The position numbers were made by a program, and so were the translations under genes. Below the pieces are notes generated by a model. The model was not told the origin of the DNA. It worked only from the letters and a program-made list of their open reading frames with translations, and did no database searches. Source: Candidatus Kapaibacterium sp. (GTDB lineage Bacteria; Bacteroidota; Ignavibacteria; Kapaibacteriales; NICIL-2). From it: a DNA stretch of 38,446 nucleotides. Shown piece after piece: positions 6,752-32,629 of this stretch (positions are counted from its first letter, which is position 1; each line of letters begins with the position of its first letter). The stretch is from assembly GCA_025055755.1 (NCBI GenBank), contig JANWWF010000006.1, positions 31,274 to 69,719 of the forward strand, in the 5' to 3' direction.

Positions 6752-7027
6752 TTACATTTCAATACTGGTATGCAGCGCTATTTCCTCAAGAATGCTGCTT
6801 ACCCGCAGACAGTCGCTAAGCGGACCTTCATAGACAGCAGCTTTCCCGCGCGTGTGAACTTCCCACGTCAAGCTCTCGGCTTCTTCGACGCTGCATCCGG
6901 TCGCTTTCACCAGTTGGGCTATAACCTCGTCGAATGTGTGCCAGTCATCGTTGTAGAGAATGCACTTAGCGGGAGTACCGACAGTAGTTTCAACCTCCAA
7001 CTCAGGGAGAAATTGTTCAGTCGGCAT
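6752..7027 (-). CDS. clpS: ATP-dependent Clp protease adaptor ClpS
   Basis: ClpS binds N-terminal degron residues (N-end rule) and passes substrates to ClpA/ClpC-ClpP. This 91-residue protein has the degron-pocket residues N26, D27 and D28 in LYNDDWHTFDEVI, and H58 in VHTRGKAAVYEG, matching the E. coli N34/D35/D36/H66 set as I recall it. The start is taken as ATG 7027. An in-frame GTG at 7039 would add four residues, but ATG places the gene 38 nt after a TATATTCG box at 7066-7073, in keeping with other genes here. No clpA or clpC is in the window. Confidence 0.92.
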   Translation of the reverse strand: MPTEQFLPELEVETTVGTPAKCILYNDDWHTFDEVIAQLVKATGCSVEEAESLTWEVHTRGKAAVYEGPLSDCLRVSSILEEIALHTSIEM

Positions 7028-7065
7028 AGTGCACACCACACAATGGGGGACATCGAGAGCTTGTG

Positions 7066-7130: not shown

Positions 7131-7829
7131 ATGACTGATCGCGAATTCCTCGATGCACTCGATGCAATCATCGCCGAGCGGCACATGCTGCAGCATCCGT
7201 TCTACCAGATGTGGAACCGGGGCGAATTGACACTCGAGCAGCTCCGCCAGTATGCGTTGGAGTACTACCACCAGGTGTATCATTTTCCAACGTTCGTCAG
7301 CGCAACGCATGCACGATGCGCCGACGATATGGAAGTGCGGCAGATGTTGCTGGAAAATCTCATCGAGGAAGAGCACGGCGAAAACAACCATCCTGAGCTA
7401 TGGCGGCGTTTTGGGGATGCGCTGGGCATTTCGCGCCAAGAGATGGCACATCGCGAATACTTGCCCCACACACGGAAGTCGGTGGAAATCCTCCGCGAGC
7501 TGGCATTCGATCCCAATCCTGCCGTCGGGCTGGCAGCGCTGTATGCGTATGAATCCCAAATCCCTGAAGTTGCAGCAACGAAAATTGATGGACTCAAGCG
7601 CTACTATGGGCTTGACAGCGAAGATGCCCTCATTTTCTTCCAGGTGCACGAGCACGCCGACGTTATTCACCGCCAAGTAACACGCGACGCGCTGGTCCGT
7701 ATATGCCGGACCGAAGAGCAGCAGCGTATTGCGCTCGATGCTGCTCGCGAAGCGTGCGATGCCATCAATCTGCTGCTCGATGGCATCTACGAGCGATGGT
7801 GCTGCCAAAACGAACCAGTCAGTGCGTGA
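7131..7829 (+). CDS. CADD-type protein, probable self-sacrificing para-aminobenzoate synthase
   Basis: This 232-residue helical protein belongs to the CADD (Chlamydia CT610)/TenA-PqqC-like di-metal oxygenase family. CADD makes the folate precursor para-aminobenzoate from one of its own tyrosines, bypassing PabA/B/C. Compared with CADD from memory, all key positions are present: Y25 (CADD Y27, the sacrificed residue), Y41 (Y43), metal ligands E80, H87, E141, H173, D177 and H180 (E81, H88, E142, H174, D178, H181) and K151 (K152, amino donor). Shared signatures include HML-HxFY, YESQIP and HEHADV. The frame is open upstream to 6960, but ATG 7131 fits both homology and the upstream promoter box. 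The GTG of the next gene overlaps the stop by 4 bp. Confidence 0.88.
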   Translation: MTDREFLDALDAIIAERHMLQHPFYQMWNRGELTLEQLRQYALEYYHQVYHFPTFVSATHARCADDMEVRQMLLENLIEEEHGENNHPELWRRFGDALGISRQEMAHREYLPHTRKSVEILRELAFDPNPAVGLAALYAYESQIPEVAATKIDGLKRYYGLDSEDALIFFQVHEHADVIHRQVTRDALVRICRTEEQQRIALDAAREACDAINLLLDGIYERWCCQNEPVSA

Positions 7830-16071: not shown

Positions 16072-16087
16072 AGCCCTACCCAGGGCT
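16072..16087. terminator. weak hairpin between convergent genes
   Basis: AGCCCT and AGGGCT form a 6-bp stem with a 4-nt ACCC loop in the 71-bp gap between secA and the large cargo gene. No T-run follows on either strand, so this may not be a terminator. Confidence 0.2.
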
Positions 16088-19000
16088 TACCACCGTATCA
16101 AGCGCAATCGCTCTGTGCGACTCAAGGTGCGCACGGCAACTACGTACATCCCTGGTGCAATGTGCCGCAGGTCTAATCGAAGTTCTGCTCCGCCTGGCGT
16201 TGACACCAAAGGATACTCTCCAGCGACCAAATGGCCGAGCAAGTCGTATAGTGAGACGGTGACAGGTGGCGTTCTTCCCTGAACGCGTACCAGCACATAT
16301 TCCTCTGCCGGATTCGGCACCAGTTCCACTGTGAAAGGTAGCTCTTCTGACACGCCGAGAGTAAAGTCATACTCTGCACTTTCTGCCCAGCAGCCATACT
16401 CGTTAGTAACACGCACGCGGTAGCGTCCATTAGCGGAAGGCGTGAAGGTTTGGCTTGTTGCCCCGCTGATCGGCTGTCTTCCAGAATACCACTGGTACTG
16501 CGCTGCGTCAACACTTGCCCGCAGAGTATTGCCTTCCTGCACAATCGTCGGTGTCGGGGGCAGAGGATAGAAGCTCACCCGTACTGCTGAGGCATTGAGC
16601 ACACAGCCAGTGGCAGTTCGCACCTGCACACTGTATGTTCCACTTTCGGTGACACGGAGGAAGCGATCTGTTGCCCCATTATTCCAGCGGTAGGTCGTAT
16701 AGCCGCTCCCTGCGTCTAGGATGATTGTGTCACCCTCGCACGCTTCGAACCGGTTTGAAAGCGAAGTGATGGTGGGAGGCTGCACCTGTTGGATATGGAC
16801 GGTATCACTGCTCCCACTGCACCCTTGGGCAGATGTGCACATGCACCAGTAGCGTCCTGCCTGCCGGACGACTATCTGGCGTGTTGTGTCGCCGGTGCTC
16901 CAGCGATAGCGCGCGCAATTATCTCCTGCATCAAGAATGACACTATCGCCGGGGCAGAGCAGCGATGGTCCACTTACGGTAATCTGCGGTGCAGGGCGCG
17001 GCGCGACGTTGACCGTGAAGGTTTGCGGTAGTGAGCGGCAGCCGTGGATGTCAGTAGCAACGACGGTGTAGCTTCCACTTCGCCGAATAACACGCCGTTG
17101 GCTGGTTACTCCGTCGAACCAGAAGAACGTCGCATTCGGTGTCGAGGTGGCGCTGAGCACAACACTATCTCCTTCGCAGAAGCTAAGACTTCCTTGCACC
17201 TGCACTGTAAGGGGAGGACGGTTACGTCGAGCGAGCCGCATAGTATCCGACGTGCGGCTGCATCCATTCGCATCGGTGACAGTGACGGTATAGTTTCCTG
17301 GATTGCTTATACGAATGCGTGACGTTGTTGCGCCAGTGCTCCACTGATATGCCGCATAGCCTCCCGGTGCCTCCAGTACGACTGTGTCGCCTTCGCAGAA
17401 CGGATTCTGTCCCGTTATTTCGATAGTGGGGACCGGTGGACGTGCCACAACCGAGCATGGTGGCGCTATAGTTGATGCAGAACAGCCCGCAGCGTTTGTG
17501 ACCGTTACTTGGAGAGTGTAGGTGCCAATTGCCCGCAGGACGATGCGCTGTGTCGTGTCGCCTGTGCTCCAGCGGTACCGCACAAGGTTCTGCCCTGTCG
17601 CAGTTGCAACAATTGAATCCCCTTCGCATACCATTGTCGCCGATAGCGTGATGGTAGGAGAGGGACGTTGGTTGACCGTGATCTGCAGTCGAGCGGTATC
17701 ACGCAGTGTTCCACTGGTAACCGCCAGGAGGACGGTGTAAACGCCTGGATTGGGGAATATCACCGTCACTGCAGAATCAGACGAACTTCCGGGAGCGCCA
17801 CCGGGGAACGTCCATGTCCGGCTTGCAATGGAGCCTACCGAAGCATCGGCAAAGTGGATAGTGTCACCGGTACAAATCGAAGTACGGGATGCCCAAATCA
17901 CCGCAGTGAGGGTTGAACTCAGCAAGTTGCCGTACCAAATACCCCGGCCATAGGTGGCTGCATACAGGCGATTTGTTGCTGTGTCAATTTCCAGGTCGCG
18001 GACGATAACATTCGGCAATCCCTCGTCCCACGAACTCCACTGGCTGCTTCCCGGCTGACGTACGTAGATGCCGATATCGGTCCCCACGTACACATTGCCA
18101 TTCCGTGGGTCAATGGCTATGCAGTTCACCGGCACATTCGGCAGACCGCTACTCATGTTCGTCCACGTTGAGCCTCCATCGGTGGAACGGAAGACTTTTT
18201 GTCCACTGACCCAATTGCTACAGGTTGCCCAGATAATGTTCACGTCGGTAGGGTCAATTACCGCATTGCTCAGACTGGAGGGAAGCGAACCGACAATACT
18301 TGTCCACGTACTACCGGCGTTTGTGGTGCGATACATAGTCGAGCTTGTTCCCACGACTATCACATCTGGATTTGAGGGAGCAACAGCCATGTAGGTCGCC
18401 CGGGCATTTGTCGGCAGTGGTGTACCCAGAGATGTCCAGTTAGTTCCGCGGTTTGTAGAACGGTACACAGTTCGATATGCTGCGAAGAGCAACTGAGGGT
18501 TCGAGGGGTGCATGTGGAAAGGTGTTACCCAGGCACCATTGCTTGATTCCCCAGAAGGGGAGATGTTTGTCCAGGATGAACCACTATTGGTCGAGCGATA
18601 GAATGAGCCGTAGTAGATTGAGCAGTAGAGGGTGCTGGTAGCAGTCCAGTCAACAGCATTTTCCATTCCATCGCCCCCATAGACCATTGCCCAGGAACCG
18701 GTCGTGGTGCGGCGGTTAGTTCCATTGTCCTGCGTCCCTGCCAAGACAACAGGGTTTGTACTCCCACGAGCATGGCTCATACGGTAAACTTGCAAGATAG
18801 CCAGTCCATCACTCATATCCTGCCAGGTAGAGCCAAGATTGGTGGTGCGGAAAACACCGCCATCGTTCCCAACCCATAGCTCGGTTGTTCCCGGTTTGAA
18901 CAGAAAATAGTGTTGGTCTGCGTGCACATACGGCACTGAACTTCCCCGCTGCCAATAACTCAGACATGTCCACCCTTGGCCGGCGTTATCTGAACGCCAG

Positions 19001-20214
19001 ATGTTGATTCCACCGGCAAAGAGCATTGTCGAGTCGGTTGGATGAACGATAAGACAGAGGTCGAACCACCCTTGTCCGCCGCTGCTTGTACCACTGGTAT
19101 TGCTGCCAAGAATGTTAGGACTCGATGATTGCTGAGTCCAGGTCGAGCCGGTATCTAAGCTCATGTAAAGACCTGCAAAGCCATTGTTCGATGCGCTCGA
19201 GCAGAGCGCGTACACACGGCGAGGGGCAGTTGGCGACACCGCAAGGGCAATGCGATTGACTCCGGTATTCGACCATACGCTCGACCAAGTCACTCCCCCA
19301 TCAAGAGAGCGAAGAATGGCGGCGCCGCCGCTTTGGTTGTAGGTGGAGGCGAAGATGATGTTTGGGTTTGTCGGATGGAGGCGTAATTCCATTGTGTAGG
19401 CTGTGGTCCGTTGTGACCACGTCTGTCCGCCGTCGGTGGAACGCCAGATGCCATTGCTTGTGGCTGCCAGAAGGATTGCAGAGTTTGTGGGCATAATCAA
19501 AATCTCACACACGACGCGGTTTTGATTTGTGGTCCAGTTCAGCCCCGTCGTAGCCCATGTTACGCCACCATCGGTGCTTTTGAGGATACCAACGCCATAG
19601 GTATCGCGTGCGTCCCGGTCGCCAGTGCCAATGTAGATGATCTGCGGATTAGTTGGATCGATGGCAATGGCGCTTACTCCCAGCGTTGCCAAGGTGTCGG
19701 TGTTGCTGGTCCACGTTGTCCCGTTGTCAGTGCTTTTCCAAAGACCACCGCTGGGAGAACCAGCAAAGATTAGGTTGGAATTGGTTGGGTGAAAGGCAAT
19801 GTAGTTGATGCGTCCTGCCCCTCCGTTGTTGGGAACTGCAACCGGTCCCAGATGGGTGAAGTTTGCGTTGGATTGCACCCGTGTTCCTTTGGCGCGGCTG
19901 GCGCGCGATGCTCGTTGCTGCGCAATTTTTGCTTGCAGCTCCTGCCACAGAATTTCACCGCTGGGAAATGTGCCATCTGGCATAAGGCGGAGCTCCCAAA
20001 AGTCTGCCCAGCGCCCGAAATGCTCGATGTCTTCTTCGCGAGCTTCCTCGTCTTCCTTTTCTTCCCCAAGAGGTCTGGTGCTTAGGGAGCGTTCGTATGC
20101 ACGCTTGATGTCCTCGAATCGGGCGGCTGTATCACGGAGAAGATCATGCCAACGGGGCTGTTGTGCCGATAGCAGCGTTGCTCCCATAATCGAGAGAAAA
20201 AGTACTCGTGCCAT
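16087..20214 (-). CDS. giant T9SS cargo: BNR/VPS10-like propeller + PKD + Ig-like repeats + sorting domain
   Basis: This secreted protein has 1375 residues. The signal peptide is MARVLFLSIMGATLLSAQ, followed by an acidic linker (EEKEDEEAREED). Residues about 95-765 are sialidase/VPS10-type propeller repeats recognisable by repeated S-T-D-x-G-x-T-W (KSTDNGTTW, KSTDGGVTW, RSTDGGQTW). A PKD domain covers about 775-850. About five Ig-like repeats follow (C-x-G-D-x-x-x-x, then Y-R-W-S-T-G-D-T-T, then G-C), each with a cysteine near either end. A type A T9SS sorting domain ends the protein (VELVPNPAEEYVLV...LYDLLGHLV...GMYVVAV). ATG 20214 is chosen over an in-frame TTG at 20229 because it puts the signal peptide first. 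The likely role is cell-surface adhesion or carbohydrate binding; there are no visible catalytic residues. Confidence 0.87.
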   Translation of the reverse strand: MARVLFLSIMGATLLSAQQPRWHDLLRDTAARFEDIKRAYERSLSTRPLGEEKEDEEAREEDIEHFGRWADFWELRLMPDGTFPSGEILWQELQAKIAQQRASRASRAKGTRVQSNANFTHLGPVAVPNNGGAGRINYIAFHPTNSNLIFAGSPSGGLWKSTDNGTTWTSNTDTLATLGVSAIAIDPTNPQIIYIGTGDRDARDTYGVGILKSTDGGVTWATTGLNWTTNQNRVVCEILIMPTNSAILLAATSNGIWRSTDGGQTWSQRTTAYTMELRLHPTNPNIIFASTYNQSGGAAILRSLDGGVTWSSVWSNTGVNRIALAVSPTAPRRVYALCSSASNNGFAGLYMSLDTGSTWTQQSSSPNILGSNTSGTSSGGQGWFDLCLIVHPTDSTMLFAGGINIWRSDNAGQGWTCLSYWQRGSSVPYVHADQHYFLFKPGTTELWVGNDGGVFRTTNLGSTWQDMSDGLAILQVYRMSHARGSTNPVVLAGTQDNGTNRRTTTGSWAMVYGGDGMENAVDWTATSTLYCSIYYGSFYRSTNSGSSWTNISPSGESSNGAWVTPFHMHPSNPQLLFAAYRTVYRSTNRGTNWTSLGTPLPTNARATYMAVAPSNPDVIVVGTSSTMYRTTNAGSTWTSIVGSLPSSLSNAVIDPTDVNIIWATCSNWVSGQKVFRSTDGGSTWTNMSSGLPNVPVNCIAIDPRNGNVYVGTDIGIYVRQPGSSQWSSWDEGLPNVIVRDLEIDTATNRLYAATYGRGIWYGNLLSSTLTAVIWASRTSICTGDTIHFADASVGSIASRTWTFPGGAPGSSSDSAVTVIFPNPGVYTVLLAVTSGTLRDTARLQITVNQRPSPTITLSATMVCEGDSIVATATGQNLVRYRWSTGDTTQRIVLRAIGTYTLQVTVTNAAGCSASTIAPPCSVVARPPVPTIEITGQNPFCEGDTVVLEAPGGYAAYQWSTGATTSRIRISNPGNYTVTVTDANGCSRTSDTMRLARRNRPPLTVQVQGSLSFCEGDSVVLSATSTPNATFFWFDGVTSQRRVIRRSGSYTVVATDIHGCRSLPQTFTVNVAPRPAPQITVSGPSLLCPGDSVILDAGDNCARYRWSTGDTTRQIVVRQAGRYWCMCTSAQGCSGSSDTVHIQQVQPPTITSLSNRFEACEGDTIILDAGSGYTTYRWNNGATDRFLRVTESGTYSVQVRTATGCVLNASAVRVSFYPLPPTPTIVQEGNTLRASVDAAQYQWYSGRQPISGATSQTFTPSANGRYRVRVTNEYGCWAESAEYDFTLGVSEELPFTVELVPNPAEEYVLVRVQGRTPPVTVSLYDLLGHLVAGEYPLVSTPGGAELRLDLRHIAPGMYVVAVRTLSRTERLRLIRW

Positions 20215-20332
20215 GGCAGGATAATTCAAAGGTTTACTGCAGTAAGATACGAAAAATTCGTGCCTAAAAAAACTCCCGCCAAGAAGGTTGCAATGGAGAT
20301 AAGGAAAGCCATCAAAACAGGCTGCACCGAAG

Positions 20333-30601: not shown

Positions 30602-31561
30602 AGGAGACAAGAGCAGTTCCTCTGCCAGGGCCGCAACGGTTTCCAGATAGCGAACGCGGCTGTCGTCGTCGAGCTTGCGGCTTCGGCGCGCAACAAGCTG
30701 CAGATTATGCTCTGGAGTAATGCGCCACAAGACAAGCTCGATACGCGCTCCATCACTGGTCCGCTCTATGGTACCACTGACGAGAGCTTCTATGCCGAAG
30801 TAGGCAAGGGCTGCAATCTCATCAGAGGAAGGGGGCATACCAGGCTCTGGCTCATAGAGGCGGAAATAGGCATACATGCTGTCTCGGGTGTCGATGTCGA
30901 GCGTGACGTAATATGGTGACCGTTGAGCTCCAGTGATTGCGGCTAAAATGCCGCTGTAGCTTGTTGCCACTGCATCGGCGAATAGTTCCCACGGTGGTAC
31001 CAGGGAGGGATTATCCCGCACAACCATGCTTGTTACGGCAAGGACTGCGGCAGGGACGATACGCATGGTGCTATCGCTGCGTGCATACAGGAGCGAGTCA
31101 CTTACAGCAAGGCATAAAGCACGCTCGAGAGCCTGGAGCAGTGCGACATCTGCCAAAGGCTCGTCGGTGTTTTCCCACCGGTGGCGAATGAGTGCGTAGC
31201 CGATTCCCTGGCTCCGCTGTCCGGCACCGTGGAGCGTCAACTCTGCACGGAGCAGTCCATGGAAGCAGTCCACACGGACACGAAGACGGCGGCCAATGCT
31301 CAATCGGGCTTTGATAGAATCGGCTGGTAATCCTGCCGCCTGGAGCGACACGTAGGGAGAATCAGCTGGTGTAACAAGGGTAAACTGCCCGCTCTGACGC
31401 AGTGCAAGGGCAACCCCTGCTGCTACTTTCGCAGCAGAGACACCACTGCAGCGGCTGGTGAGCTCAATACTTTCGAGCAGAACGTGCTCTTTGTGCTTTG
31501 CTGCAAGAGGAAATGTGCTAAGCAGCACAACAGCAAGGACTCCTACCACCCCAGCACCCAT
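30584..31561 (-). CDS. exported protein of unknown function
   Basis: This 325-residue protein has a signal peptide (MGAGVVGVLAVVLLSTFPLAA, cleavage before KHKEH). The mature part is mixed alpha/beta. Its first half (VALALRQSGQFTLVTP..., RRLRVRVDCFHGLLRAELTLHGAG) is loosely like the TolB-N/CsgG-type periplasmic fold that senses or assembles envelope components, but the match is too weak to assign. The gene overlaps the deoxyhypusine-synthase-like gene by 19 bp at its start and the opposing PorZ-like gene by 18 bp at its end. No lipobox, sorting domain or catalytic motif is visible. Confidence 0.72.
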   Translation of the reverse strand: MGAGVVGVLAVVLLSTFPLAAKHKEHVLLESIELTSRCSGVSAAKVAAGVALALRQSGQFTLVTPADSPYVSLQAAGLPADSIKARLSIGRRLRVRVDCFHGLLRAELTLHGAGQRSQGIGYALIRHRWENTDEPLADVALLQALERALCLAVSDSLLYARSDSTMRIVPAAVLAVTSMVVRDNPSLVPPWELFADAVATSYSGILAAITGAQRSPYYVTLDIDTRDSMYAYFRLYEPEPGMPPSSDEIAALAYFGIEALVSGTIERTSDGARIELVLWRITPEHNLQLVARRSRKLDDDSRVRYLETVAALAEELLLSPLPALP

Positions 31562-32586
31562 GCGAAAATCAAGGGTGCAACGATCGTCGCATCACTTTCG
31601 ATAATAAACTTCGGCGTCTCAACTCCAAGCTTACCCCAGGTGATTTTCTCATTCGGCACTGCGCCGGAGTAGGAACCATAGCTGGTTGTGGAATCACTGA
31701 TTTGGCAGAAGTAGCTCCACAAGGGAATGTTTGTATATCCCAGATCTTGGTGGAGCATTGGCACTACGCAAATGGGAAAGTCTCCTGCAATACCCCCGCC
31801 GATTTGGAAAAAGCCAATGCCCGGTGGTTGGCAGTTTGCTACATACCAGTCTGCCAGCCAGGTCATGTACTCAATCCCTGATTTGACAATATCCGCCCGA
31901 AGCTCACCCCGCAGGACATACGAAGCAAAGATGTTCCCCGTTGTCGAGTCCTCCCAGCCAGGGACGACGATAGGAAGATTTTTCTCCGCTGCTGCTACCA
32001 TCCACGAGTCTTGCGGATCAATTTCGTAGTACTGTTCCAGTTCTCCGCTCAGGATAAGCTGGTAAAGGTACTCGTGGGGAAAGTAGCGTTTGCCTTCTTG
32101 TTGGGCACGTCGCCACACTCGCTCCAGATGGTATTGTAAGCGACGGAATGCTTCTTCTTCTGGGATGCACGTATCAGTGACACGGTTGTAATGGTGTGTG
32201 AGCAGTTCGTGTTCTTGTTCAGGAGTAAGATCGCGCCAGTTCGGGATACGCTTGTAGTGAGAATGTGCCACCAGATTCATTACGTCTTCTTCCAAGTTAG
32301 CACCTGTGCACGAGATGATATGCACTTTGTTTTGCCGTATCATTTCTGCCAGTGATTTCCCCAGCTCTGCTGTGCTCATTGCCCCAGCAAGTGCCACCAG
32401 CATTTTGCCGCCACGCTCGATGAGGTCTTCATATGCCCGGGCAGCTTCGACAAGAGTTGCTGCATTGAAGTGGAGGAAGTGCTTTTCCATGAAGCGCGAA
32501 ACAGGACCCCGCGCTAACGCATGTTCGACAACATTATCTGCCTGGGGAATGGTCAATGGCTCAGCTTCGATGTGGGCTTGTTGCAT
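31543..32586 (-). CDS. deoxyhypusine synthase-like protein
   Basis: This 347-residue protein is clearly homologous to deoxyhypusine synthase, the NAD-dependent enzyme that moves an aminobutyl group from spermidine to a lysine. The NAD-binding stretches (MLVALAGAMSTAELGKSL, SCTGANLEEDVMNLV) and the active-site region ITWGKLGVETPKF are present; K319 corresponds to the human catalytic K329. Bacteria lack the eIF5A acceptor, and bacterial members are thought to act on polyamines such as homospermidine, or on unknown acceptors. ATG 32586 is preferred over TTG 32622: AGAGGGA lies just upstream and the TAAGTTTG box is 43 nt away. It heads a two-gene unit with the unknown exported protein. Confidence 0.9.
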   Translation of the reverse strand: MQQAHIEAEPLTIPQADNVVEHALARGPVSRFMEKHFLHFNAATLVEAARAYEDLIERGGKMLVALAGAMSTAELGKSLAEMIRQNKVHIISCTGANLEEDVMNLVAHSHYKRIPNWRDLTPEQEHELLTHHYNRVTDTCIPEEEAFRRLQYHLERVWRRAQQEGKRYFPHEYLYQLILSGELEQYYEIDPQDSWMVAAAEKNLPIVVPGWEDSTTGNIFASYVLRGELRADIVKSGIEYMTWLADWYVANCQPPGIGFFQIGGGIAGDFPICVVPMLHQDLGYTNIPLWSYFCQISDSTTSYGSYSGAVPNEKITWGKLGVETPKFIIESDATIVAPLIFAWVLGW

Positions 32587-32629
32587 AGGCGTTCCCTCTT
32601 GGACTAATGGTGGAACAACCAAACATTTA

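Follow-up and report, generated by a model that had tools for sequence, protein, structure and literature searches.

The gene at positions 7131-7829 of the window, by which we mean the whole stretch of 38,446 nucleotides analyzed in this study, is predicted, with a probability of roughly 87%, to encode a single-turnover, dimetal, O2-dependent para-aminobenzoate (PABA) synthase of the CADD/PabS family, which would feed FolP and act as the sole source of the folate ring by way of imported tyrosine. The protein is a further member of a kind of enzyme that is already known, and from this kinship we infer its PABA-making activity; what is new is the context, a free-living, aerobic bacterium of hot-spring type apparently with no shikimate pathway, together with a natural control found in one related genome (G029). 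Widespread free-living aerobes with genomes of 2-4 Mb would apparently rely for their PABA solely on a self-sacrificing enzyme that yields one product per protein molecule. The one-shot PABA enzyme is, on this evidence, not confined to intracellular parasites, and its hosts seemingly lack the textbook precursor, chorismate.

The open frame lies on the plus strand and encodes 232 residues; its start at 7131 fits the N termini of the homologues, and an in-frame ATG is also found upstream at 6960. The protein scored 281 bits against the NCBIfam model TIGR04305 (fol_rel_CADD), above the curated cut-off of 200, and a PDB sequence search returned 9pj4 (2e-58), 1rcw (2e-50) and 8va9 (2e-49) as the top matches, all of them pABA synthases. 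An AlphaFold2 model built with 26 homologues as input reached a pLDDT of 93.6 and a pTM of 0.90, and in Foldseek the structures 1rcw and 8va9 ranked first, with TM values of 0.87-0.95 and an rmsd of 1.5, so that the modeled protein is predicted to adopt the heme-oxygenase-like helical fold. Compared with four congeners, the gene showed dN/dS values of 0.02-0.04 at a dS close to saturation and is under strong purifying selection, more than expected by chance. The features of the gene and its surroundings are listed in the table.

Table. Coordinates of the predicted PABA synthase gene, its functional codons, the adjoining gene and the short CADD-like proteins of related genomes.
Feature	Position	Strand	Evidence
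CADD-family (PabS) self-sacrificing para-aminobenzoate synthase, predicted, 232 aa	7131..7829	+	TIGR04305, PDB sequence matches, AlphaFold2 model
Tyr25 codon, predicted sacrificed ring donor (CtCADD Y27, NePabS Y25)	7203..7205	+	PDB-hit alignment; invariant in 26 sequences
Tyr41 codon, essential aromatic (NePabS Y41)	7251..7253	+	alignments
Metal ligands, first pair: E80 (7368-7370), H87 (7389-7391)	7368..7391	+	alignments
Y140 (CtCADD Y141, NePabS F148; metal choice) and metal ligand E141	7548..7553	+	alignments, literature
Lys151 codon, predicted amine donor (CtCADD K152, NePabS K159)	7581..7583	+	alignments
F169 codon (CtCADD Y170, NePabS F177), metal-selectivity site unlike Chlamydia	7635..7637	+	alignments, literature
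Metal ligands, second set: H173, D177, H180	7647..7670	+	alignments
clpS (ClpS protease adaptor), divergent, 91 bp upstream of CADD	6752..7039	-	PF02617, 58 bits
Short CADD-like proteins	L157:1105-1662, L158:1024-1590, L159:344-901, L160:1171-1806, L161:1055-1645		below TIGR04305 cut-off

The initial annotation had placed Y25, Y41, K151, E80, H87, E141, H173, D177 and H180 at the CADD positions, and the alignments with the PDB hits confirmed all nine. Y25, Y41 and K151 align with their counterparts in both characterized enzymes, those of Chlamydia trachomatis (CtCADD) and Nitrosomonas europaea (NePabS), and E80, H87, E141, H173, D177 and H180 make up a 3H/3-carboxylate dimetal set. In the alignment of 26 sequences these three residues and six ligands are all invariant. 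The same PDB-hit alignments also locate Y45 and W91, whose NePabS equivalents have been linked to radical transfer (PMC11965152). Of 111 CADD loci entries, several of which share a genome in a sample biased to relatives of the query, 107 match the window protein at each of the 13 sites checked; the four deviating entries are L106 (F169Y), L030 (E141K, D177E) and the pair L031/L104, which represents one gene.

The annotation's broader statement, that every known functional residue is conserved, stands for the residues it named but overlooked position 169, where the window protein has F and CtCADD has Y170. The window protein carries a mixed pair, with Y140 as in Chlamydia CADD and F169 as in Nitrosomonas PabS, a metal-site combination found in neither characterized wild-type enzyme. 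The sampled loci, which are skewed to relatives of the query, show this Y/F pair more often than any other state. In CtCADD, two tyrosines adjoining the metals (Y141 and Y170) accompany the use of Mn/Fe, while NePabS, with F148 and F177 at these sites, uses Fe/Fe; the residue at position 170 (Tyr, CtCADD) or 177 (Phe, NePabS) influences this choice. The NePabS variant F177Y switches to Mn/Fe, and the variant F148Y uses Fe/Fe and Mn/Fe about equally (PMC11965152). Because the Y140/F169 pair corresponds to the F148Y state of NePabS, either metal combination should be usable by the window enzyme.

We searched for genes of folate and shikimate synthesis in the genome that contains the window (G000; 2.33 Mb in 136 contigs, 99.2% complete), whose nearest named genomes are the Kapabacteria-type MAGs KatS3mg040, KatS3mg039, SKW269 and J074. 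Absences were established by family searches with controls. No member of PF00425, the family of PabB, TrpE and the isochorismate synthases, was found at E<=1, and the same search was positive in 14 of 14 controls. The only class-IV aminotransferase of the genome is IlvE (435 bits, cut-off 279), which reached just 113 of 308 and 83 of 177 bits with the best PabC models. Chorismate synthase (AroC, PF01264) and dehydroquinate synthase (AroB, PF01761) were likewise not found in profile searches. FolP is present on contig C48, giving the expected context of FolP without a canonical PabB, and contig C59 carries folK and folB side by side.

With PabB, PabC and AroC all missing, canonical PABA synthesis is not encoded in this genome, and the organism probably depends on CADD alone for making PABA. 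These findings favor the initial proposal of a suicide-type PABA synthase that would supply folate synthesis instead of PabA/B/C, and the complete canonical pathway that would have told against it is not present. The joint absence of chorismate synthase and dehydroquinate synthase goes further than that proposal: the organism appears unable to make chorismate, and we infer that it scavenges tyrosine. An independent study of Kapabacteria MAGs from hot springs concluded that these bacteria may lack the capacity to make phenylalanine, tyrosine and tryptophan (PMC6338057). The genome also encodes a COX1-type oxidase, as do 41 of 41 related genomes, which makes the O2 needed by the reaction plausible.

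The proposed mechanism follows the reaction chemistry described for CtCADD and NePabS (PMC11965152, PMC13108848). By analogy with these two enzymes, a reduced Fe/Fe or Mn/Fe center held by the six ligands would activate O2, and a radical would travel through the aromatic residues Y140, Y45, Y41 and W91 to Y25. The side chain of Y25 would then be cleaved at the Calpha-Cbeta bond and oxidized, giving the carboxylate, while K151 would donate its epsilon-amine to the ring; with O2 and a reductant consumed, Gly and aminoadipate would be the residues left behind. Each protein molecule could yield at most one PABA, which would be passed to FolP. With PabB and both tested shikimate steps missing from the genome, the folate ring would come only from tyrosine that is acquired externally and incorporated into the protein.

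We analyzed the co-occurrence of these genes in 41 related genomes, in which CADD above the cut-off was found in 30 and FolP in 36. Thirty-two genomes have FolP and lack PabB: 25 of them encode CADD, five a short, divergent CADD-like protein, and only G002 and G032 neither. G002 was considered as a case of CADD loss within the genus and rejected, the contig ending 77 bp past the syntenic match in what is an assembly gap. G032 has FolP and AroC, and no PABA source was identified among PabB, CADD and the short CADD-like proteins. Matches to the PabB model TIGR00553 were sorted by NCBIfam classification; several hits in the relatives were discarded as PabB candidates, most of them classifying as TrpE or isochorismate synthase, and PabB above the cut-off was left in G016, G025 and G037, the first of which has CADD as well.

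AroC and AroB are lacking in exactly the same 25 of the 41 genomes, including the single-contig G004, G005 and G017. CADD occurs in 23 of the 25 genomes without AroC and in 7 of the 16 with it, counts that are not independent: the genomes are related and four changes on the CADD tree suffice to explain the AroC state, so that few events underlie the correlations. Among 50 additional genomes, found by way of the named CADD loci, AroC is missing from 26, comprising 24 of the 28 Kapabacteria-type genomes, one Myxococcales MAG and one Marinimicrobia MAG; all 11 cyanobacteria in this set encode it. FolP is not recognizable in three CADD-bearing genomes of family f7 (G013, G034 and G039, with MetH-type matches only, or none), and both CADD and a recognizable FolP are missing from G021 and G028.

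Taken together, the relatives offer a natural mutant series, with orthologues that keep or lack the sacrificial residues, a version deprived of a metal ligand and a short variant. The orthologue in G029 (L163:1664-2350) has F at positions 25, 41 and 151 and keeps all six ligands; no other sampled orthologue lacks Y25, Y41 and K151. As for the window gene, a divergent clpS lies next to it, and in the tree it falls on a long branch within the Kapabacterial clade. The same genome (L164:3359-5763) encodes PabA next to a 614-aa PabB-PabC-like fusion, which best matches PabB models (317-319 bits; TIGR00553 cut-off 328). In this one case, the loss of the sacrificial residues is what would be expected if those residues serve PABA synthesis. 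The orthologue itself is possibly repurposed or decaying. In G027, which has FolP and no AroC, PabB or other identified PABA source, the CADD protein (L162) shows E141 replaced by K and D177 by E, and an in-frame insertion of four residues adjoining the second ligand set; a check for a frameshift found none.

The short CADD-like proteins, of about 185-190 aa, come from G009, G010, G018, G019 and G026 (families f3 and f4), where both CADD and PabB are absent. They are 27-31% identical and score 72-85 bits with TIGR04305 (cut-off 200), and they keep HPFY at position 25, Y41, K151, W91 and a full 3H/3-carboxylate set in which H-xx-E-xx-H replaces H-xxx-D-xx-H. The one searched against the PDB, L157, has only pABA synthases as relatives there. 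Judged by their sequences, these proteins are candidate members of a second, divergent PABA synthase clade.

The family had been described in the initial annotation as best known from chlamydiae and a few proteobacteria, a view too narrow for the 220 loci returned by a single genome scan. The 80 loci retained come from Kapabacteria/Ignavibacteria-type MAGs, Cyanobacteria, Myxococcota, Acidobacteriota, Chloroflexota and Marinimicrobia. In a tree with weak support at its deep nodes, the Kapabacterial CADDs form one clade (support 89), and those of Cyanobacteria a separate neighboring clade. The cyanobacterial proteins (L077-L101; Okeania, Trichodesmium, Spirulina and Microcoleus) are about 58-63% identical to the window protein and come from genomes that encode chorismate synthase; Okeania SIO2C9 and Trichodesmium GBRTRLIN201 have two CADD loci each. 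The CADD of one locus labeled Bradyrhizobiaceae (L057, JAGFIZ010000019.1) clusters with family f2 of the Kapabacteria, and AroC is absent from the genome it comes from; the record is probably a mislabeled MAG.

Of 84 loci entries, 34 have a divergent clpS at a distance of 99-365 bp from CADD; they come from families f1, f2, f8 and f10, and the glycosyltransferase, membrane-protein and secA neighbors are common to the genus only. The surroundings of CADD in the 80 named loci yielded no homologue of folB, folK or folP. As pure speculation, the pairing with clpS could reflect shared regulation or the disposal of the spent single-turnover enzyme. Elsewhere in the window, on the minus strand, are a deoxyhypusine synthase family protein (31543-32622; PF01916, 136 bits), here in a bacterium, and a large sortilin/PKD-repeat protein with a Por-secretion C-terminal sorting domain (16087-20229).

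Three other explanations were weighed, the most serious of which is that this CADD-family dimetal oxidase serves another job, PABA or folate being obtained from the community. PABA crosses membranes, and these organisms already appear dependent on outside aromatic amino acids. The f7 genomes that have CADD without a recognizable FolP, and the G027 protein that has lost a metal ligand, also fit another role. NePabS gave a very low yield in vitro, and those who described it consider alternative functions possible (PMC11965152). Nevertheless, the sacrificial residues are kept across phyla and have been lost from the orthologue that coexists with PabABC, and FolP, FolB and FolK are retained, so we regard this explanation as improbable.

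That the window protein is instead a PqqC-, BesC- or TenA-like enzyme, turning over repeatedly on a small-molecule substrate, might be suggested by the shared heme-oxygenase-like fold and by weak matches to the three models. These matches fall far under the cut-offs, however (PqqC 61 of 240 and BesC 60 of 500 bits, both equivalog cut-offs; TenA 16 of 130), and in the BesC alignment the positions of Y25 and Y41 are both L, which makes this reading very unlikely. We give even less weight to an assembly artefact, in which the normal pathway would be present too and PabB and the shikimate genes merely missed. The assembly is indeed in 136 contigs, but it is 99.2% complete; AroC and AroB are absent together from all other members of its family and from most of the order, and no chorismate-binding match occurs in its own family. 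The single-contig congeners G004 and G005 have the same pathway holes, so fragmentation is not the cause of the missing genes. A self-sacrificing PABA synthase remains our preferred reading.

For the order as a whole, we lean toward a wider scenario, with clearly less confidence, in which most members make folate without chorismate. CADD would have come first and so allowed the loss of the shikimate pathway in most lineages, the ring would derive from scavenged, protein-borne tyrosine, and the short CADD-like clade would do the same job elsewhere in the order. Families f7, f8 and f10, which still have both CADD and chorismate synthase, would be in line with CADD having been in place first.

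A full-text search of the accessible literature found no paper on Kapabacteria together with CADD or a self-sacrificing PABA synthase. Putative family members have been listed in Chloroflexi, Sphingomonas, Wolbachia and Rickettsia (Stone et al. 2025), and a CADD-family gene in chorismate-less Rickettsia was judged degraded (Driscoll et al. 2017, PMC5615194).

Among the known systems, PqqC and BesC resemble the window protein in fold and O2 use, but the protein scores well below the cut-offs of both, and BesC has no equivalent of Y25 or Y41. The rickettsial gene 'frC' (TIGR04305) is a closer parallel, as a CADD-family gene in bacteria without chorismate and PabA/B/C; it is reported to be degraded in almost all rickettsiae, where the folate pathway is eroded (PMC5615194), whereas the window gene is intact, under purifying selection and accompanied by FolP, FolB and FolK. 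CtCADD (CT610; 1rcw, 8va9), about 40% identical to the window protein, shares with it the fold, the six ligands, the sacrificial Tyr and Lys, and the equivalents of Y43/Y47 and Y141. It differs in having Y170 in place of F169, and, in contrast to Chlamydia, the window organism is free-living and has no chorismate synthase, with the gene adjoining clpS outside any folate cluster. NePabS (NE1434; 9pj4), which is reported to complement the loss of pabABC (PMC11965152), shares the sacrificial residues, the ligands and the F at its position 177, and it too comes from a free-living environmental host; the window protein differs from it in having Y140 instead of F148 and in lacking an extra loop of about 8 residues.
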